NCBI RefSeq assembly: GCF_010367455.1
Contig: NZ_WRPR01000012.1
Coordinates: 1 to 64,000 of the forward strand
From: Candidatus Laterigemmans baculatus
Lineage (GTDB): Bacteria; Planctomycetota; Planctomycetia; Pirellulales; Pirellulaceae
Reading direction: 5' to 3'
DNA length: 64,000 nucleotides
The notes under the pieces are model-generated. The model did not search any database. It was given only the letters and a program-made list of their open reading frames with translations, and had not been told where the DNA came from. The translations under genes and the position numbers were made by a program. Of the stretch, positions 7,543 through 64,000 are shown piece after piece; position 1 is the stretch's first letter, and every line of letters begins with the position of its first letter.

Positions 7543-8535
7543 ATGGACTCCCCTCGCGACTCCGCGGCGTCTGCCGTGCCGGAAGCTGCTGCTGTGCCCG
7601 GGACTTTGGCGACTCCGGCCGCTGCGTCAATCCGTGGGATCGTGCCGCCGATGGTCACGCCTCTGGCCAGTCCCGACACGATCGACGAGTTGGGATTGCA
7701 GCGGTTGGTCGAGCACCTGATCGAAGGTGGAGTTCATGGTCTGTTCATCCTCGGGACGACCGGCGAGGGTCCGAGTTTGCCGCAAACGGTGCGGCGCGAC
7801 CTGATCATGCTAACCTGCAAGTTCGTCGACCAACGGGTGCCGGTGATGGTCGGGATCACCGAGAGCGTTCCGGCGATGGGGCTCGAGCTCGGACGGATCG
7901 CTGCCGGTGAAGGCGCGACCGCCACGGTGCTCGCTCCGCCTTACTACTTTCCGTTGACGCAGCAGGAGTTGGGCGATTACGCCGAGGGGCTGGCGGCCGA
8001 GCTCGAGTTGCCCTTGATGCTGTACAACATGCCGGGCCTGACCAAGGTTTGGTATGAGGTCGAGACGCTGCGGCGATTGACGCAGGTCGAGTCGATCATC
8101 GGCCTGAAGGACAGCAGCGGTGATCTGCGATATTTCGAAGCGGCCGTCGAGCTCAAACGACTGCGGCCCGATTGGTCACTGCTCGTCGGACCGGAACATC
8201 TGCTTTCCGCTACGCTGCAGTTGGGCGGCGATGGTGGTGTCAACGGAGGAGCCCACCTATTTCCGCAGTGGTTCGTCGATTGTTACGAATCACATCAGCG
8301 GGGGGCACTGGCTGAGGCAGCGCGATACCAAGCGGCAATCGAGGCCCTGCAAGCCTGTTATGCCGTCGGAGGCGACGACCCCCAGCGGTTCTTGAAGGTT
8401 CCCAAACATGCGCTGGCACTGAGGGGAATTTGCAGTGACCGTCTGGCTCCCCCGCTGCAACCTTTGGCTCCGCAGCAGATCGAGCAACTGCGGGCACTGA
8501 TCGAGCAACTCGAAAGTTCTACTCTCCCGGGCTAG
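7543..8535 (+). CDS. Dihydrodipicolinate synthase/N-acetylneuraminate lyase family aldolase
   Basis: About 330 residues of the DapA/NanA class I aldolase (TIM barrel) family. After a roughly 25-residue Ala-rich extension comes GIVPPMVTPL, then FILGTTGEGPSL (the pyruvate-binding GTTGE motif, near residue 70) and YNMPG (near 164). The Schiff-base lysine lies in IGLKDSSGDL (near 188). Family members condense or cleave 2-oxo acids. The position downstream of isomerase and kinase suggests a sugar-acid (2-keto-3-deoxy) aldolase rather than lysine biosynthesis; this is inference. The ATG at 7543 follows CAAGGA by about 10 bases. The 213-base gap upstream has no clear gene. Confidence 0.82.
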   Translation: MDSPRDSAASAVPEAAAVPGTLATPAAASIRGIVPPMVTPLASPDTIDELGLQRLVEHLIEGGVHGLFILGTTGEGPSLPQTVRRDLIMLTCKFVDQRVPVMVGITESVPAMGLELGRIAAGEGATATVLAPPYYFPLTQQELGDYAEGLAAELELPLMLYNMPGLTKVWYEVETLRRLTQVESIIGLKDSSGDLRYFEAAVELKRLRPDWSLLVGPEHLLSATLQLGGDGGVNGGAHLFPQWFVDCYESHQRGALAEAARYQAAIEALQACYAVGGDDPQRFLKVPKHALALRGICSDRLAPPLQPLAPQQIEQLRALIEQLESSTLPG

Positions 8536-44527: not shown

Positions 44528-45967
44528 ATGACTTCCCGCCTTTGCCGACAGTCGAACCAGCCGCACCACTGGAGTCCCGGTTCCCGCCGCGAATTCCTGC
44601 AGGCGACGGGATTTGGATTTGGCGCTCTTGCGCTTCAGGCAATGATGCATGAAGAGTTGCGAGGCGCAGAATCTCCTACGCCGGGGCCGCATTTCGCACC
44701 CAAAGCGAAACGCGTGATCTGGTGCTTCCTGGAAGGGGGGCCGAGCCATCTCGATTTGGTCGACCCCAAGCCCTTGCTCAACAAGCTGGCCGGCCAGCCT
44801 TTGCCGTCGAGCTTTCAGGAGCCGATCACGGCGATGGGGGAGAAAGGGGCGCCGTTGCTCGCCGCTCCGCGGACCTGGAAACAGCACGGCGAGAGTGGGT
44901 TGTGGGCGTCGGAGTGGATTCCCCATATCGCCACCTGCATGGACGACATCGCCGTCGTTCGATCGTGCTGGACCAACGGAATCAATCATGCCGGTGGCGT
45001 CTGCCAGATGAACACCTGCATCAACGTTGCGGGCCGACCTTCGCTCGGGTCGTGGGTGAATTATGGATTGGGCAGTGGGAATCAAAATCTGCCCTCGTTC
45101 GTCGTGATGTGCGACAATTCACGCAAGCCCGTCAACGGTCCGCGAAACTGGGGATCGGGGTTCATGCCGGCGACGCACCAGGGAGTGCATATCGACGGCA
45201 GCAGCGCCGAGCCGATCGCGAACCTCAACTGGCCCGAAGGCTATTCGAGCCAGCGGCAGCGTGCGAAACTCGACCTGTTGCAGCAGTTCAATCGCGAGCA
45301 TGCCTCGATGCGACCGCAGCAGTCTGAGCTCGACGCCCGGATCGAAAGTTATGAGCTCGCGTTCCGAATGCAAGCCCGAGCTCCGGAAGCCGTTGAGTTG
45401 TCGGGAGAAACCGCTGCGACTCGCGAGTTATATGGATTGGACCAGAAAGAAACCGAAGCGTTTGGGCGCAACTGTTTGCTCGCCCGCCGGTTGGCCGAGC
45501 GGGGCGTCCGCTTCATCCAACTCTACAGCGGTACCGGCAGCGGCTGGGATTCTCATTCGGCGATCGAGAAGAATCACTCGCGGTTGTGCAAGTCGATGGA
45601 CAAGCCGGTTGCCGGATTGATCAAGGACCTCAAGCAGCGGGGACTGCTCGACGAGACGCTGGTGATTTGGGGCGGTGAGTTTGGCCGCACACCAATGAGC
45701 GAAAAGTCCAATGGCCGCGACCATAATCCCACCGGGTTCTCGATCATGATGGCGGGCGGTGGTGTGAAGGGGGGACAGACGATCGGTGCGACCGATGAGC
45801 TCGGGTTGTATGCGATTGAAGATAAGATGCACGTCCATGACATCCACGCGTCGATCCTGGGGCTGCTCGGGATCGATAACATGAAGCTGACGTACGACCA
45901 TAAAGGACGCCCGGAACGCCCCACGATCAACGAAGGGCGATTCAATAAGAAGCTGATCGGGGCGTGA
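44528..45967 (+). CDS. DUF1501 protein (second copy)
   Basis: A 479-residue exported protein. The signal-like N-terminus contains SRREFLQATGFGFGALAL. Its core motifs are [60 protein letters not shown] and DIHASILGLLGID. It begins 15 bases after the PSD1 stop and ends in a GTGA overlap with the next gene, so translation of all three is probably coupled. This is a separate pair from the 33-36.8 kb copy, in opposite orientation. Confidence 0.9.
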   Translation: MTSRLCRQSNQPHHWSPGSRREFLQATGFGFGALALQAMMHEELRGAESPTPGPHFAPKAKRVIWCFLEGGPSHLDLVDPKPLLNKLAGQPLPSSFQEPITAMGEKGAPLLAAPRTWKQHGESGLWASEWIPHIATCMDDIAVVRSCWTNGINHAGGVCQMNTCINVAGRPSLGSWVNYGLGSGNQNLPSFVVMCDNSRKPVNGPRNWGSGFMPATHQGVHIDGSSAEPIANLNWPEGYSSQRQRAKLDLLQQFNREHASMRPQQSELDARIESYELAFRMQARAPEAVELSGETAATRELYGLDQKETEAFGRNCLLARRLAERGVRFIQLYSGTGSGWDSHSAIEKNHSRLCKSMDKPVAGLIKDLKQRGLLDETLVIWGGEFGRTPMSEKSNGRDHNPTGFSIMMAGGGVKGGQTIGATDELGLYAIEDKMHVHDIHASILGLLGIDNMKLTYDHKGRPERPTINEGRFNKKLIGA

Positions 45968-47322
45968 ACCGGGAAGACGACACTTCGCGGCAAAGCCGCT
46001 GGGCGGAGTGGGCCGTGTTTGTGGTCTGCTTTTGCCTGGCGTGTTTCTTTTTCGCCGTTCAGGTCGGGCGGCGTGACGGCTTGAGTGCTCCACCGCAGCC
46101 ATTCGATTCGCTCGATTACGATGCGCTCGCTGTTCAAATCGCCAAAGGGAATGGATTCTCCTTTGACTTTCGCGACCCCGATTTTCAGCGTCCGTATTTG
46201 GCCGCGGCCGACGGCGAGCGATCGCATGCAACTGCCGACGTGGAGCGGGACCGAATCTATCAGCAGCGACTGGCCGATCCGCTGCATGGTCCAACAACTT
46301 TTCGGCCTCCCGGTCTGCCCGCGGTGATGGCAGCGATTTACCAGACGGCCGGCCGCCAGTTCGCCCTCGTGCGGCTGCTCAACTGCGCGGCGATGGCGGC
46401 GGCAATTTCGCTCACCTTGGTTTGTGCGTATCGCGCTGCGGGACTGGTCGCCGTGGTGGTGGGGCTGTTTTGCGGGACGATCGTCGACAGCGTTCGCCCT
46501 TACATTTCAGGCGACATTCTCTCGGAACCGCTCGCGACCTTGGCGATTACCGTCGTGTTCGTCCTGCAACTGCACTACATCCGGGGGCCTTCGCTGCGAC
46601 GGGCTGTGGGGATCGGAGGGGCGCTGGGGGTGGCGGTTCTGTTTCGCACCGCCTTCGTGCTATGGCTCCCGGTGCTCCTGCTGGCGATGGTCCTGCCGGT
46701 TCCCCATTCGCTCAGGCAAGTGGGTTGGCGGCGACGGCTCGTCGACGCGACGGTGACGGCTGTGGTGCTCGCCGCTTGTGTGGCGCCTTGGGCCGTGCGG
46801 AATTCGCTGCTGCTTGAGGAGTTCAAGCCGCTCGGGCTGCACGGTGAAATCAATCTCGCGGTGGCTTACAGCGATCGAGCGTTGCAAGGGGGCGGGCTGT
46901 GGTACAACCCGCTGCCCGAGGATCCCGCTGCAGTCGCCGCGCTGCCGGACCGGGCGGTCGAGCGTGAGCAATGGCTGGCCGAGCAGAGTCGCCGCGAAGC
47001 GGGCCGATGGCTCGCGGAGAATTGGCGGCAGGTTCCTCGGCTGATAGTCGCTCGGGTGCGGACCGAGTGGTGGCCAACATCGCGACGCGAGATCCTTTTA
47101 TTGCTGCTCGTGGCCGTCGGGCTGGTGCTCTATCCGCGGCGGGACGAACAGTGGCTGATGGTGTGTTTCCTCGTCGCTGCGAGTGTTGCCGTTGCCGCCA
47201 GCTGGTCGGTCGGAGGCCGATTCACGGTTCCGGTTCGCCCGCTGATGTACGCCGCCGCTGGAGTGGGAGCCGCACGAGTCGTGCAGTGGGTGCGGGGTTT
47301 GGCGCCGTGGCAGAACCGCTAA
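45964..47322 (+). CDS. Polytopic membrane glycosyltransferase (GT39/ArnT-like)
   Basis: A 452-residue protein that starts with GTG inside the DUF1501 stop (GTGA overlap). About nine hydrophobic helices. The first periplasmic loop carries SLDYDALAVQIAKGNGFSFD, the position of the acidic catalytic motif of GT-C enzymes, and later TFRPPGLPAVMAAIYQ. Other helices include GLVAVVVGLFCGTIVDSV and AVVLAACVAPWAVRN. GT-C enzymes move sugars from a polyprenyl carrier to proteins or lipids. Its close link to a PSD1/DUF1501 pair is unusual; glycosylation of those exported proteins or of the envelope is a possible, unproven role. Confidence 0.78.
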   Translation: MNREDDTSRQSRWAEWAVFVVCFCLACFFFAVQVGRRDGLSAPPQPFDSLDYDALAVQIAKGNGFSFDFRDPDFQRPYLAAADGERSHATADVERDRIYQQRLADPLHGPTTFRPPGLPAVMAAIYQTAGRQFALVRLLNCAAMAAAISLTLVCAYRAAGLVAVVVGLFCGTIVDSVRPYISGDILSEPLATLAITVVFVLQLHYIRGPSLRRAVGIGGALGVAVLFRTAFVLWLPVLLLAMVLPVPHSLRQVGWRRRLVDATVTAVVLAACVAPWAVRNSLLLEEFKPLGLHGEINLAVAYSDRALQGGGLWYNPLPEDPAAVAALPDRAVEREQWLAEQSRREAGRWLAENWRQVPRLIVARVRTEWWPTSRREILLLLLVAVGLVLYPRRDEQWLMVCFLVAASVAVAASWSVGGRFTVPVRPLMYAAAGVGAARVVQWVRGLAPWQNR

Positions 47323-59224: not shown

Positions 59225-60718
59225 CTACAGCGGGCGGACGACCGAGAGGCTGCGGTAGTAGTCGAACAGCGTCTCGACCGAGAGCACGCCTCCGCCCATG
59301 CCGCTCTTGTTGATCCCTGCATAGGGGACGCCTTGAGCGAAGACATTGTGGGCGTTGATCCAGCTGTTGCCCGCGCAGAGTGCTTCGGCCACTCGCGCGG
59401 CGCGGCCGAGGTCGGACGACCAGACGCTGTTGGCCAGCCCGTAGTCGGTGCGATTGGTCAGCTCGATCGCTTCGTCTTCGCTGCTGAACGGGGCCAGGTA
59501 AGCGACCGGTCCAAAGATCTCCTCGCGGGCCGCCACGTTGTCGAGCGAGCCGGCGAGCAGGGCCGGTTTGACGTAGTGGCCGGAGAAGCCATCGACCGAA
59601 GCCGCGCCCCCTTCGAGCAAGCACTCGGCTCCTTCGGATTGCCCTCGCTCGAGATAGCCCAGCACGCGCTCGCGCTGTTTCTGGCTGACGACCGGACCCA
59701 TCTGGCTCGCATCGTTCAATTGGTATCCGATGCGGACGGCCTTGAGCCGATTGACGCATTCGCTGACGAACCGGTCGTAGATGTTCTTGTGCACCAACCA
59801 CCGCGTCGCATCGCAGCAGACCTGGCCGGTGTGGAAGGTGATCGCACCGACCAACCTTTCGGCCGTCTGCGCAATGTCGACGTCCTCGAACACCACGGCG
59901 GCGCCTTTGCCACCGAGTTCGAGTTTGACCGGAACGAGGTTGCGGCCGCACGACTCGGCGACCAGCCGCCCGACTTCCGGCGAGCCGGTGAACGACATCC
60001 GCTTGATGTTGGGATTTGACGAGAGTGCGGCGCCGGCACCCGGTCCGGTCCCGGTGACGACGTTGATCACCCCATCGGGAATCCCGACTTCCTTTGCCAG
60101 CCGCGCTAAATAGAGCGTCGACAGGGGAGTATCTTCGGCCGGCTTGATCACCACCGTGTTGCCCGCCGCCAAGGCTGGCGAGATTCCCCAGCCGACCAGC
60201 AGCAAGGGAAAGTTCCAGGGGAAGATAAATCCGCACGGTCCCCAGGGGTGCCGGACCGTCCAGGCTTCGTGCCCTTTGACCGCCAGCGTCGTGCGGCGAT
60301 TGACGTGTTGGGCGAGATCGGCGTAGTACCGCATCGTGGCGATGAAATTCTGCACGTCCCCTTGCGCCTGGGCTTCGATCTTGCCTGCATCGAGGGCTTC
60401 GATCTGAGCGATGATCGGCAACCGTTTCTCGACTTCGTCGGCCAAGCGATGCAGCAGCGCGCTCCGCTCGTTCGGAGGCAGCTTCGCCCACGGGCCCGTG
60501 CGAAAGGCTTCATCAGCCACGTCGACGGCGCGAGCGACGTCGGCCGCTTGCAGTTCGGCGACATCGGCCAGCTTGTTCATCGATCCCGGGTCGTAGGTGG
60601 CGAAGGTGCTGCCGTCGCTCGACTCCACGTTCTCGCCGCCGACGAAGCTGGCCAAGGGGCTGCCGTCGAGAAACGCTTGAACCTCGGGAAGCAGCCCGGT
60701 ATCCACGTTGGCAATCAT
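59225..60718 (-). CDS. Aldehyde dehydrogenase (NAD(P)-dependent)
   Basis: 497 residues from ATG 60718. Class ALDH signatures: FIFPWNFPLLL near 158, KPAEDTPLSTL, the cofactor loop FTGSPEVGRLV, catalytic Glu in KLELGGKGAAVVFED (near 262) and catalytic Cys in FHTGQVCCDATR (near 296). NAHNVFAQGVPYAG and SGMGGG near the end form the oligomer and substrate region. It oxidises an aldehyde to an acid in the cytoplasm, but the substrate cannot be read from the sequence. It is divergent from the ceramidase fusion gene, with about 180 bases between the starts. Confidence 0.93.
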   Translation of the reverse strand: MIANVDTGLLPEVQAFLDGSPLASFVGGENVESSDGSTFATYDPGSMNKLADVAELQAADVARAVDVADEAFRTGPWAKLPPNERSALLHRLADEVEKRLPIIAQIEALDAGKIEAQAQGDVQNFIATMRYYADLAQHVNRRTTLAVKGHEAWTVRHPWGPCGFIFPWNFPLLLVGWGISPALAAGNTVVIKPAEDTPLSTLYLARLAKEVGIPDGVINVVTGTGPGAGAALSSNPNIKRMSFTGSPEVGRLVAESCGRNLVPVKLELGGKGAAVVFEDVDIAQTAERLVGAITFHTGQVCCDATRWLVHKNIYDRFVSECVNRLKAVRIGYQLNDASQMGPVVSQKQRERVLGYLERGQSEGAECLLEGGAASVDGFSGHYVKPALLAGSLDNVAAREEIFGPVAYLAPFSSEDEAIELTNRTDYGLANSVWSSDLGRAARVAEALCAGNSWINAHNVFAQGVPYAGINKSGMGGGVLSVETLFDYYRSLSVVRPL

Positions 60719-60896
60719 CGTTTTCACCCGTGGGAGTCCTGTCGAAAGGGTTGTGAGGGAAGCCTCGGCACGTCCCGCTGGGGGCGAGCGGCGATTTGTA
60801 AGTCGCGACGCGTTCGCTGCCGGTGGAGGTGCACACGATCGGCTACGATTGTATCGCATCGAAGCTCTTCCGCCGAACTGCTCAGAGGATTCCGCC

Positions 60897-63800
60897 GTGC
60901 TGCACTTCGCTCATCGTTTAGGGGCCACCGCGTTGTTTGCCGCGTTGGCCGCTTCGGGTTTCGTCATCGCGCTGGGGACGATCGCCCTGGGAACGCTCTT
61001 CACGGGGGGATCCATCGCGGCGGCTCAGTCTCCGGAACCGGCCGCTGCCGGCGAGATTCGCTTGGCGCGGTTCTCGGCCGACGTGACGATTCCGCTCGGT
61101 CACCGCTGTATGGGAATCCTCCCGGCCAAAGCTTCAAAAATCGTCGATCCGCTGCAGGTCCACGGGTTTGTGTTGCTCGGCGAAGGGCAACCGATCGTGC
61201 TCGCGGCGTTTGACTGGTGCGAGATCCGCAACGGTGCCTACGATGCTTGGCGGGAAGCCTTGGCCGAAGCGGCGGGAACTTCGCGGGAACGCGTCCTGGT
61301 CAGCAGCTTGCACCAGCACGACGCCCCGGTGATCGACAGCGGTGCTCAGCAACTGCTCGACGAAGTGGGACTTGAAGGCGAGTTGTACGACCGAGCCTTC
61401 CATCAGGATTGTCTCGAGCGAGTTTCGCAGGCCGTCCGCAATTCATTGGCGACGGCCAAGCGAGTGACCCATGTCGGCGTCGGCCAAAGCCGCGTCATTA
61501 AAGTCGCATCGAACCGCCGCCTCGAGCATCTCGATGGGCGCGTCGACCATGGCCGGTACAGCAGCGGCGGCACGAATCCGTTCCAGGCCGACGCGCCGGA
61601 GGGGCTGATCGATCCGATGCTCAAGACGCTCAGCTTTTGGAGCGACGATGAACCGCTGCTGGCGGTGAACCACTACGCCGTGCATCCGATGAGTTATTAC
61701 GGGCGGGGGGGCGTCAGTTACGACTTCGTCGGAATCGCGCGGGAGGAGCGCCGCCGGGAATCGGGCGTGCCGCAAATCTACCTCTCGGGCTGCAGCGGTG
61801 ACGTGGTGGCAGGAAAGTACAACGAGGGGACGAGCGACAGCCGCCGGATGCTGGCCGACCGCTTGCGGGAAGCGATGGCCCGAGCCTGGGAGGCGACCGA
61901 AAAACATCCGGTCGAACAGCTCCGCTTTCGCAACGCGACCTTCGATTTGCCCTTTCACGAAGGCGAGGAATTCACCGAGCAGTCGCTACGCAAGATTTTG
62001 GAAGACGACGAGCAGGAGATCTCCGAGCGGATCCTCGCTGCGATGGGACTGAGCAGCCGGGCGCGGATCGCCGCCGGGCAGAAGATCGATCTTCCCTGCG
62101 TCGATTTCGGATTCGCACAGATCGTGTTGCTGCCGGGCGAGGCTTTTGTCGGCTATCAGGTGATGGCCCAGCAGATGCGCCCCGACTCGTTCGTGATGGC
62201 GATCGGATACGGCGAATGCTGGCCCGGTTACGTCCCAACCGCTTTGGCTTTTGCCGAGGGCTTCAATCACGGATGGCGGTGGGCCGGCCCGGGCAGCGAG
62301 GAAGCGATCAAGTCGGCCCTCCGCGAAGTCCTGCGGCCGACTTCGTCCGAGATGGAACAGACCGGCGAGTGGCAGCAGATCGCGTTGCCGGAAGAGGTGG
62401 AGCAGCGTTGTTTGGAGATCCTCCGCGAGGGACTCGCAAGCGACCAGTTTTGGCCCGCGATGCACGCTGCCGAAGGACTCACGCGAGGTGGCCACGGAGA
62501 GTCGCTGCTGAACGGGCTGGCGGAACGACTGGCCGCTGAAACGGACGCCCAACGCCGCTGCGGCCTGGCTCGCGAATTGGTGCGAGCTGGCGAAGTACGG
62601 TACACGCGGGTCTTGCTGGAGACGCTCGCCGACACCGAATCGAGCGGTCGCACGCATGCGGCGGAGAGTCTTTTCAAAGTCGACCAGGTTGGCGACGGGA
62701 AAGCGCTGCGGGGGGCGATGGAGCAGTCGGAGAATCTCGCGTTGCGGTTGATGGCCAGCGCCGCGCTGGCTCGCCAAGGCAACGCGGCAGCCCTGGCGAC
62801 GATCCGCGCCGCCCTCGATGCGGAAGCCGACGACGATTTGCGGATCGCCGCCTGGGTGCTCGGCCGCGTCGGCGAAAGCGAAGACATCGCTCGGCTGAAA
62901 GCCGCGCTGGGGCGGGCGCAGACGCCGCTGACGCGGGCGTTCATCGAGCATTCGCTGGCCGCGCTCGGCGATCCGGAGGGACTGCATGCCCTGGCGGAAA
63001 ATCTCAGCTCCGAGGACGCGGCGATTCGCACTTATGCGGCGACTTTTGCTGGCGATGCCCGGGCGACTTCGCTGGCGCCTCGGCTCGTCGAGCAACTCGA
63101 CGATCCGGAGCTCGATGCGCGCATCCGCGCGGCGCAAACGCTGCTCGAACTGCAACAGCCGCCGGTGGATCGAGATGCGGAGGTGAGTTATTTGATCTTC
63201 GAGGCGAACGAGATGCACCCTCGCAATACCGAGGGATCGATCATCGAACTGGCCGATGGCACGCTGCTGTTCGCAATCACGCGGTTTGAAGGCGATGGAA
63301 GCGACTTTGCCAAAGCAAAAATTGTCAGTCGCCAGTCGCAGGATGGCGGACGCACCTGGACGGCTCCCCGCGTGTTGCAGGAAAACGTTGGCGAAATGAA
63401 CGTAATGAGCGCCACGCTCCGTCGCTTGGGGTCGCCGAATCAGTGGGACAGCCCGATCGGAATGTTTTACCTGGTGAAAAATAGCAAGAGTTCGCTCGAC
63501 CTGTACCTCCGCATTTCGGAAGACGAAGCGAAGACGTTTGGGGAGCCGATCAAGGTCAACCAGGAGCCGGGCTACCACGTGATGAACAACGACCGGGTCA
63601 CCCGCTTGTCGAGCGGCCGGCTGCTGGGACCGGTCGCGTTTACCGAAGACGTGGCGAAGTCGAACCACTTCGTTTCGTTCTGCCTGCTCTCGGACGACAA
63701 CGGGAAGACGTGGCGTCGCGGCCGCGGTTCGATGGACCAACCGAAGCGGGGAGCGATGGAGCCGGAAGTGGTCGAGCTGCGGGACGGTCGAGTGATGATG

Positions 63801-64000
63801 ATCGCACGCACACAACTCGGCATCATCGCCGCAGCCCACTCGAGCGACGGAGGGGATACGTGGAGCGAGCCATTCGCGTTGCCGCTCCAAGCCCCGGAAG
63901 CACCCGCCACTCTCCGCCGCGTGCCGGCGACCGGCGATCTGCTGTTGATCTGGAACAACACCTATGATCCCGACCAAGGGCACGGGGGACGTCGCACTCC
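60897..64000 (+). CDS. Ceramidase-like / HEAT-repeat / sialidase-like fusion protein (3' end beyond the window)
   Basis: An open frame of at least 1034 codons from GTG 60897, with AGAGGA 7 bases upstream, running to the end of the window. Order: signal/anchor (ATALFAALAASGFVIALGT, residues 10-28); a neutral-ceramidase-like domain at about 50-480 (SADVTIPLG, FDWCEIRNGAYDAW, VSSLHQHDAP, NHYAVHPMSYYG, YLSGCSGDVVAGKYN, VLLPGEAFVGYQ); HEAT-like helical repeats at about 480-760 (RIAAWVLGRVGESEDIARLK, AAETLL-like AAQTLLELQQP); then a sialidase/BNR domain from about 762 (EGSIIELADGTLLFAITRF) with Asp-boxes SQDGGRTW, SDDNGKTW and SSDGGDTW. It is predicted to be exported. Activities on lipids and sialic-acid-like sugars are inferred from domain families. 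Confidence 0.82.
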   Translation, partial: MLHFAHRLGATALFAALAASGFVIALGTIALGTLFTGGSIAAAQSPEPAAAGEIRLARFSADVTIPLGHRCMGILPAKASKIVDPLQVHGFVLLGEGQPIVLAAFDWCEIRNGAYDAWREALAEAAGTSRERVLVSSLHQHDAPVIDSGAQQLLDEVGLEGELYDRAFHQDCLERVSQAVRNSLATAKRVTHVGVGQSRVIKVASNRRLEHLDGRVDHGRYSSGGTNPFQADAPEGLIDPMLKTLSFWSDDEPLLAVNHYAVHPMSYYGRGGVSYDFVGIAREERRRESGVPQIYLSGCSGDVVAGKYNEGTSDSRRMLADRLREAMARAWEATEKHPVEQLRFRNATFDLPFHEGEEFTEQSLRKILEDDEQEISERILAAMGLSSRARIAAGQKIDLPCVDFGFAQIVLLPGEAFVGYQVMAQQMRPDSFVMAIGYGECWPGYVPTALAFAEGFNHGWRWAGPGSEEAIKSALREVLRPTSSEMEQTGEWQQIALPEEVEQRCLEILREGLASDQFWPAMHAAEGLTRGGHGESLLNGLAERLAAETDAQRRCGLARELVRAGEVRYTRVLLETLADTESSGRTHAAESLFKVDQVGDGKALRGAMEQSENLALRLMASAALARQGNAAALATIRAALDAEADDDLRIAAWVLGRVGESEDIARLKAALGRAQTPLTRAFIEHSLAALGDPEGLHALAENLSSEDAAIRTYAATFAGDARATSLAPRLVEQLDDPELDARIRAAQTLLELQQPPVDRDAEVSYLIFEANEMHPRNTEGSIIELADGTLLFAITRFEGDGSDFAKAKIVSRQSQDGGRTWTAPRVLQENVGEMNVMSATLRRLGSPNQWDSPIGMFYLVKNSKSSLDLYLRISEDEAKTFGEPIKVNQEPGYHVMNNDRVTRLSSGRLLGPVAFTEDVAKSNHFVSFCLLSDDNGKTWRRGRGSMDQPKRGAMEPEVVELRDGRVMMIARTQLGIIAAAHSSDGGDTWSEPFALPLQAPEAPATLRRVPATGDLLLIWNNTYDPDQGHGGRRT

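Follow-up and report, generated by a model that had tools for sequence, protein, structure and literature searches.

The first 64,000 bases of contig NZ_WRPR01000012.1 (G000:C38, 112,980 bases) of Candidatus Laterigemmans baculatus, called the window here (bases 1-64000), end inside a gene in which a neutral-ceramidase-fold domain, a HEAT module and a sialidase-like propeller follow one another in a single frame. The gene begins with a GTG codon at 60897 on the forward strand, stays open past the end of the window (60897..64000) and is complete on the contig beyond it, with a stop at 64226 and a product of 1109 residues. There is no stop inside the frame, and no N anywhere on the contig. An original prediction, made from the sequence of the window, had described one uninterrupted frame with these three folds in this order and with these borders. 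The downstream sequence, the Pfam matches (HEAT_2, BNR_2 and BNR_3) and the structure matches to ceramidases and sialidases bear this out, and the structure matches, which had been set as a possible refutation, refuted neither of the outer folds. The component families are known; their three-part order was seen only in this genome among those searched. What the analysis establishes is the open frame, the folds, and that each half also exists by itself in other proteins.

The protein opens with a hydrophobic stretch, judged by eye to be a putative Sec signal peptide (residues 1-44, 60897..61028, + strand like all features of the gene). The neutral-ceramidase-fold domain, delimited by fold and profile comparison, occupies residues 45-481 (61029..62339). 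A linker of 15 residues (482-496, 62340..62384) reaches from the end of the ceramidase-fold match to the start of the HEAT module, which Pfam and the relatives place at residues 497-760 (62385..63176). From residue 761 onward lies the propeller, of the sialidase-like GH33 type (63177..64000 in the window), which ends at residue 1109 (64223), outside the window. Pfam matches over the cut-off are HEAT_2 (E 1e-9, best stretch 604-687), BNR_2 (E 2.6e-32 at 856-1068) and BNR_3 (E 1e-10 at 799-1009). The first 500 residues have no Pfam match up to E 1, and an NCBIfam scan of the protein gave nothing over the cut-off. An antisense open frame of 665 residues (61986-63983, - strand) was judged to be a by-product of high G+C content and no gene.

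Folds and putative active sites

The first domain was modelled with AlphaFold from the window sequence and four relatives (model A1, a 5-sequence alignment), with a mean predicted local distance difference test score (pLDDT) of 74.5, a predicted template modelling score (pTM) of 0.81, and 88 of its 441 residues below a pLDDT of 50. At E<=0.001 Foldseek returned four chains only, all of them neutral ceramidases, from human and Pseudomonas aeruginosa. With VIA-align, the model superposes on PDB 2zws with Z 22.6 and a root-mean-square deviation (rmsd) of 4.1 over 385 residues, the next unrelated chain reaching Z 7.0. Profile-profile comparison with three ceramidase-like proteins (L067, L069 and L005) gave a probability of 99.4%, with an E-value that is that of one comparison; L067 itself matches PF04734 at E 8e-57. 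Six of the 27 aligned members of the family match PF04734 at E<=0.1 (best 1.6e-9), the fusion protein not being among them. Since a PDB sequence search with the family profile (A3) gave no match at E<=1, the assignment rests on fold, profile comparison and these six members.

Five residues are invariant in all 27 aligned members: His139 and His141 of a His-x-His motif (61311..61319), His263 (61683..61685), which corresponds to His 204 of 2zws via L005 and L067, Glu415 (62139..62141) and Tyr445 (62229..62231). We take the His, His, Glu and Tyr positions to be the zinc ligands of neutral ceramidases, and these residues thus form a putative zinc site. The serine of the GDVS motif, as found in L067, is presumably the active-site residue of neutral ceramidases. 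Its column holds Val304 here (61806..61808), the only valine among 27 members that otherwise have threonine (24), alanine (1) or glycine (1) and never serine; the adjoining AGKYN stretch is kept, and the domain is up to 64% identical to unfused relatives. With this column occupied by Val304, and by Thr in 24/27, "ceramidase" names the modelled fold of the first part and not an established activity.

Elsewhere the domain has other partners. It stands behind a 3-keto-disaccharide hydrolase domain (L059:3600-5591) and behind a Gfo/Idh/MocA domain (L048:4914-7352), both partners carrying sugar-linked names, and in L050:1222-3924 behind about 470 residues without a Pfam match. In the same genome as the fusion, L069 (G000:C100) has a PF04734-like domain followed by what, read from sequence, looks like an alpha/beta hydrolase region.

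Because the window cuts the propeller of the fusion protein, the second model (A2, AlphaFold, three sequences) was built on a complete HEAT + propeller relative in L004, whose propeller is 64% identical to that of the fusion protein; it has a mean pLDDT of 79.8 and a pTM of 0.55. The best 50 Foldseek rows are sialidases and trans-sialidases, together with 6qzh (a receptor construct whose chain includes a sialidase), 4j9t (a designed metalloprotein) and 5hx0 (of unknown function). In VIA-align, 4j9t (Z 33.9, rmsd 2.5, 314 residues) ties with the sialidase of Micromonospora viridifaciens, 1w8o (Z 33.7, rmsd 2.7, 316 residues). For neither A1 nor A2 did VIA-align list a different family close to the rows of ceramidases or sialidases, a result that by itself excludes nothing.

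Six residues are invariant in 16/16 aligned propellers, and HMMER alignments place five of them on sialidase residues: Glu955 (63759..63761) on the Glu of MDEN, Arg971 (63807..63809) on the Arg of NSRD and Arg1033 (63993..63995) on an Arg of 1eur, and Asp803 (63303..63305) on the Asp of the GDAPN stretch and Tyr1064, past the window end, on a Tyr of 7lbu. The sixth, Arg776 (63222..63224), lies outside both alignments and is a candidate for the first arginine of the sialidase triad, which in sialidases belongs to an RIP motif. We take Asp803 to be the acid/base, Glu955 the catalytic glutamate and Tyr1064 the nucleophile, with Arg971 and Arg1033 presumably supplying the second and third arginine of the triad. 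Five of the six predicted sialidase catalytic residues are in this way backed by alignment.

The propeller has four Asp-boxes and a degenerate one. The three that had been predicted in the window are there, SQDGGRTW at residue 814 (63336..63359), SDDNGKTW at 932 (63690..63713) and SSDGGDTW at 982 (63840..63863); the fourth, at 1041, lies beyond its end, and the degenerate SEDEAKTF is at 874 (63516..63539). The Asp-box has a structural role and is not a marker of sialidase activity (PMC2716378). NanE, a core gene product of sialic-acid catabolism (PMC10570557), was over the cut-off in 0/16 genomes (the fusion's own, 12 others with HEAT-propeller or ceramidase-fold-propeller proteins, and three further relatives), with one match below the cut-off in G024; the control genomes gave 6/14. 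This argues against canonical sialic-acid use. In a survey, the prevalence of predicted sialidases in non-human environments exceeded that of nanE by a factor of 21.4 (PMC10570557), an excess that fits many environmental "sialidases" having other uses. The glycosphingolipid or sialylated glycan first proposed as substrate is thus weakened on three sides, by Val304 in the serine column, by the NanE count and by what the Asp-box can tell.

Occurrence of the order and of its parts

A search of genome contigs found six relatives, two covering residues 478/491 to 1101 and four lying within 15-495, and none of them covers both halves. Among 60 genomes (the fusion's own and 59 relatives), 54 have some match, and among the matches listed a full-length one occurs only in the fusion's own genome. 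Residues 331-640, which span the join, were then used as query and met both halves in 0/240 other genomes of the family, 0/395 of the order and 0/391 of the phylum, in sets that overlap; with E limits of 1e-30 or 1e-25 and the best few candidates scored per genome, a diverged copy could be missed. That the order is unusual, as had been suspected, is thus upheld by the genomes searched, and the literature searched, including the parts seen of PMC2716378, PMC8163846, PMC11131199 and PMC10570557, does not describe it. Several candidates were rejected. The G810 locus (L045; query 1-230, one stop), which looked like a ceramidase-fold gene next to a HEAT gene, consists of a ceramidase-fold gene, another gene and no HEAT; the wide matches in G052, G317 and G263 are ceramidase-fold domains with another propeller or HEAT-propeller proteins alone; those in G206 and G207 extend into the HEAT part by no more than 12-15 residues, and do so only by reading through stop codons.

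HEAT + propeller is a common two-domain protein in many planctomycetes, and in the fusion protein the HEAT module is likewise directly followed by the propeller, at full length. Once repeat loci had been removed (a few genomes still appear twice), 38 propeller rows comprised 29 HEAT-propeller proteins, four rows in two HEAT-propeller-propeller proteins, two ceramidase-fold-propeller proteins, two propellers alone and the fusion. The 39 ceramidase-fold rows comprised 31 with no partner among these domains, five with a second kind of propeller, two with the same propeller and the fusion. Given how common HEAT + propeller is, the unusual join is that at residues 482-496. Both halves are common as separate proteins. 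The original view, that the families are usually found singly or with different partners, overlooked the standing HEAT + propeller protein and the fusions of ceramidase fold and propeller that lack HEAT.

Eight such HEAT-less proteins were found, so that the pairing recurs. Two, L049 (G833) and L051 (G338), join the ceramidase fold straight to the same propeller family; L031, L033, L038, L052, L053 and L066 join it to a second kind, L066 being the sixth, with its ceramidase-fold part cut at a contig end. In the phylum sample of 392 genomes the direct fusion occurs in one (G833), and the fusion with the second propeller in one (G052, the query's own genome). The second propeller profile (A5) has no match in the PDB at E<=0.1, so the label "propeller" for this kind is a putative one, taken from Asp-box-like motifs in its sequence; the domain in L031 has no Pfam match up to E 0.01. 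The second kind was also seen in open frames of 839 and 1011 residues in L100 (G786:C14) and L101 (G860:C144).

Trees favour independent fusions. In the propeller tree the fusion protein groups with the unfused HEAT-propeller protein L011 (98/97), and L049 and L051 fall in another supported group (98/96); in the ceramidase-fold tree it likewise stands apart from both. Forcing the three together costs 20.1 log units in the ceramidase-fold tree and 33.2 in the propeller tree, and the approximately unbiased (AU) test of one origin for all fusions gave p 0.034 for the ceramidase fold, which speaks against it, and p 0.09, which is not decisive, for the propeller, the groups having been named after the first tree had been inspected. 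Left out of the trees were L091, L027, L044 and L059, then L072, L073 and L074, as a distant row and same-genome repeats. Separate fusion events are thus favoured without being proved. The five ceramidase-fold rows with the second propeller are not one clade (p 3e-41); the second propeller may have been gained twice, or once and then lost in some lines. That the two partners act in one process is suggested mainly by their having been fused repeatedly.

The HEAT module is one recognisable family with further partners of its own. Copies 51-55% identical to it lie at the C-terminus of SSF symporters (L056:2980-5508, L061:2676-5048), and one in the same range stands before an acetyl-xylan-esterase-like domain (L057:3258-6035). 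Two proteins (L054:1659-4790, L055:1923-5210) have the HEAT module and then two propellers of different subfamilies. Stand-alone HEAT genes were found in 8/12 further HEAT loci (L107, L108, L109, L110, L111, L118, L114 and L115), in clusters that hold some of SSF, SDR, PALP, an AspA/AstE-type deacylase, a DHDPS or HpcH/HpaI aldolase and a sulfatase. Over 38 HEAT loci, a count that excludes the fusion gene itself and in which near relatives are counted apart, SDR relatives occur in 17, PALP in 10, SSF in 11 (two being the fused proteins), AspA in nine, HpcH in seven and DHDPS in five; each is absent (0) from 13 ceramidase-fold control loci. By Fisher's test only SDR (p 0.002) and PALP (0.048) differ from the control; for SSF (0.09), AspA (0.09), HpcH (0.17) and DHDPS (0.31) the difference is not significant. 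As a control these loci are not neutral, because the queries were drawn from the HEAT loci: a Gfo query likewise found 0/13 control loci, though other Gfo genes lie there. On the fusion's own contig these queries gave only a weak DHDPS match, at 7639-8109, 53 kb off. This company hints at a pathway that breaks down an acidic or N-acylated compound, and is no result for the fusion protein.

Upstream of the fusion gene lie a divergent aldehyde dehydrogenase, a Gfo/Idh/MocA protein, DMFA2_C, an M20 peptidase and an amidohydrolase; downstream follow a xylose-isomerase-like TIM barrel, a protein without a Pfam match, PSCyt/DUF1553 and DUF1501. Among the fetched loci, L062 holds a 49% relative of the amidohydrolase, some 4 kb away from the closest HEAT-propeller gene; for the aldehyde dehydrogenase a single relative was met (34%, in L082), and for the TIM barrel none outside its own genome. 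Relatives of Gfo, DUF1501 and PSCyt/DUF1553 occur there around both halves, but planctomycetes have many members of these families. The surroundings of HEAT-propeller genes were set aside as a guide to function, being diverse: the commonest Pfam family, Gfo/Idh/MocA, accounts for 5/103 neighbour proteins predicted with a purpose-written gene caller. Around ceramidase-fold genes the only family in more than three loci is DUF1501 (5/16 loci, including the fusion gene's own). A heparinase II/III-like gene stands beside one HEAT-propeller gene (L005); a protein in L062 first read as such has no Pfam match.

The join and what the protein may do

Composition is continuous over the join. The G+C content is 0.617 to its left and 0.626 to its right; tetranucleotide usage correlates at 0.962 between the two sides, as it does inside the left (0.959) and the right (0.965), and comparison with twelve loci from other genomes gives 0.67-0.94; third-position G+C is 0.77, 0.76 and 0.76 in the three domains; and the codon usage of the two halves correlates at 0.918. 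The HEAT + propeller part has no N-terminal signal of its own, being joined after residue 481 by a linker too short for a second signal peptide, and the signal-peptide-like start of the separate HEAT-propeller proteins (L004 and L005, by eye) is absent. A fusion predicts such an absence, and the loss of a stop codon does not. That the assembly has joined two genes into a chimera is hardly credible: the order appears in no other genome searched, the assembly is a draft, and the tetranucleotide correlation with one of the twelve other genomes (0.944) comes close, but the join is in frame at a domain border with the second half's signal peptide cleanly absent, the three measures of composition run on across it, and among the matches listed the genome holds no second HEAT-propeller copy of this type. 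An ancestral operon was rejected as the source, since in family genomes with both halves these are found on separate contigs or with 314 kb or more between them; as the genomes are drafts, different contigs do not prove distance. The nearest pair among the matches listed, on G026:C279, is a 37%-identical ceramidase-fold paralogue (44736-46043) and a HEAT-propeller gene (60649-62457), about 14.6 kb apart.

The reading that we put foremost, tentatively, is a genuine lineage-specific fusion whose product is secreted and hydrolyses glycoconjugates with two activities. An exported zinc hydrolase with the neutral-ceramidase fold would have been extended in frame, cleanly at the border of its domain, by a HEAT + sialidase-like propeller of the kind that is a separate protein in relatives. 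The product would be exported; the propeller, with its GH33-like active-site set, would cleave a terminal acidic sugar from a glycan or glycoconjugate, and the ceramidase-fold domain, relying on water bound to zinc in place of a serine, would split an N-acyl amide or ester bond of that same molecule. The HEAT module may be a scaffold by which substrate or partner is held. Because comparable fusions occur in other planctomycetes, the two activities may well share one substrate. An environmental acidic or N-acylated glycan is more likely than a sialylated glycosphingolipid, and ceramide or sialic acid as substrate is not supported. Several points tell against this reading. The fusion is known from one draft assembly of 153 contigs, fusions of ceramidase fold and propeller are rare, and their recurrence suggests a functional linkage and not which reaction is linked; the neighbouring genes do not name a pathway; the hydrolase roles of both halves are putative, and the two models come from shallow alignments of 5 and 3 sequences (pLDDT 74.5 and 79.8); and with Val304 where most relatives have threonine, the first domain of this protein may have little activity or none.

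This last point leads to an alternative that is on the unlikely side and still the strongest of its kind, in which the propeller is the sole enzyme and the ceramidase-fold part, inactive here, has become a binding or anchoring domain. It would explain the only valine in a column of 24 threonines, one alanine and one glycine; the five putative zinc-site residues and the AGKYN stretch are kept, however, and at up to 64% identity to unfused relatives no decay is visible. That neither domain is now a hydrolase, and the product a secreted binding or surface protein, is improbable: Asp-box propellers include non-enzymes and occur with many domains (PMC2716378), but two active-site sets are conserved here, the serine column of the first domain apart. 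Slightly less probable again is glycosphingolipid processing, a true sialidase and a true ceramidase acting on gangliosides. It has both folds right and the sialidase residues largely kept, and against it stand the lack of serine in its column (0/27), the C-terminal part of 2zws without a counterpart and the distribution of NanE. Beyond the bifunctional hydrolase itself, a wider proposal may be doubted as a whole: that planctomycete ceramidase-fold domains would make up a new family of N-deacylases or esterases that act on carbohydrates and depend on zinc, that they and glycosidases of the Asp-box propeller type would jointly attack a single class of acidic, N-acylated glycan, and that the mobile HEAT module, found with propellers, SSF and esterase-like domains and near SDR, PALP, AspA/AstE and aldolase genes, would mark the same route.

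Neutral-ceramidase-like proteins are frequent in planctomycetes and are named after a lipid enzyme. Their repeated fusion to propellers of a sugar-cleaving type suggests that many of them act on glycans, which, if true, would change the annotation of a large family. The recurrence of these fusions is more interesting than the three-part order, and the fusion protein offers two specific activities that could be assayed on a single chain.

Among known systems, the neutral ceramidases (PF04734; PDB 2zws, 2zxc and 4wgk) share with the first part the fold of the catalytic domain and the His-x-His, His, Glu and Tyr positions. They differ from it in their serine, replaced here by valine and in most relatives by threonine, and in sequence, with 14-17% identity and the PF04734 cut-off not reached; the 2zws match stops at residue 490 of a 646-residue chain, so that the C-terminal part of the ceramidase has no counterpart in the modelled domain. 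GH33-type sialidases such as 1w8o have in common with the fusion protein the Asp-boxes and, as judged from the model of the L004 relative, the propeller fold, and alignment to 1eur and 7lbu matches the putative Asp, Glu, Tyr and two of the three Arg; identity between 1w8o and the modelled propeller is about 25%. Closest to the second half is the HEAT + propeller protein of Rhodopirellula solitaria (L004:7935-9821), which has the same domain order (HEAT 56%, propeller 64% identical) but stands alone, with an N-terminus of its own and no ceramidase-fold part. L049 and L051 have the same outer domain families and no HEAT, and trees of moderate statistical weight set them apart from the fusion protein.

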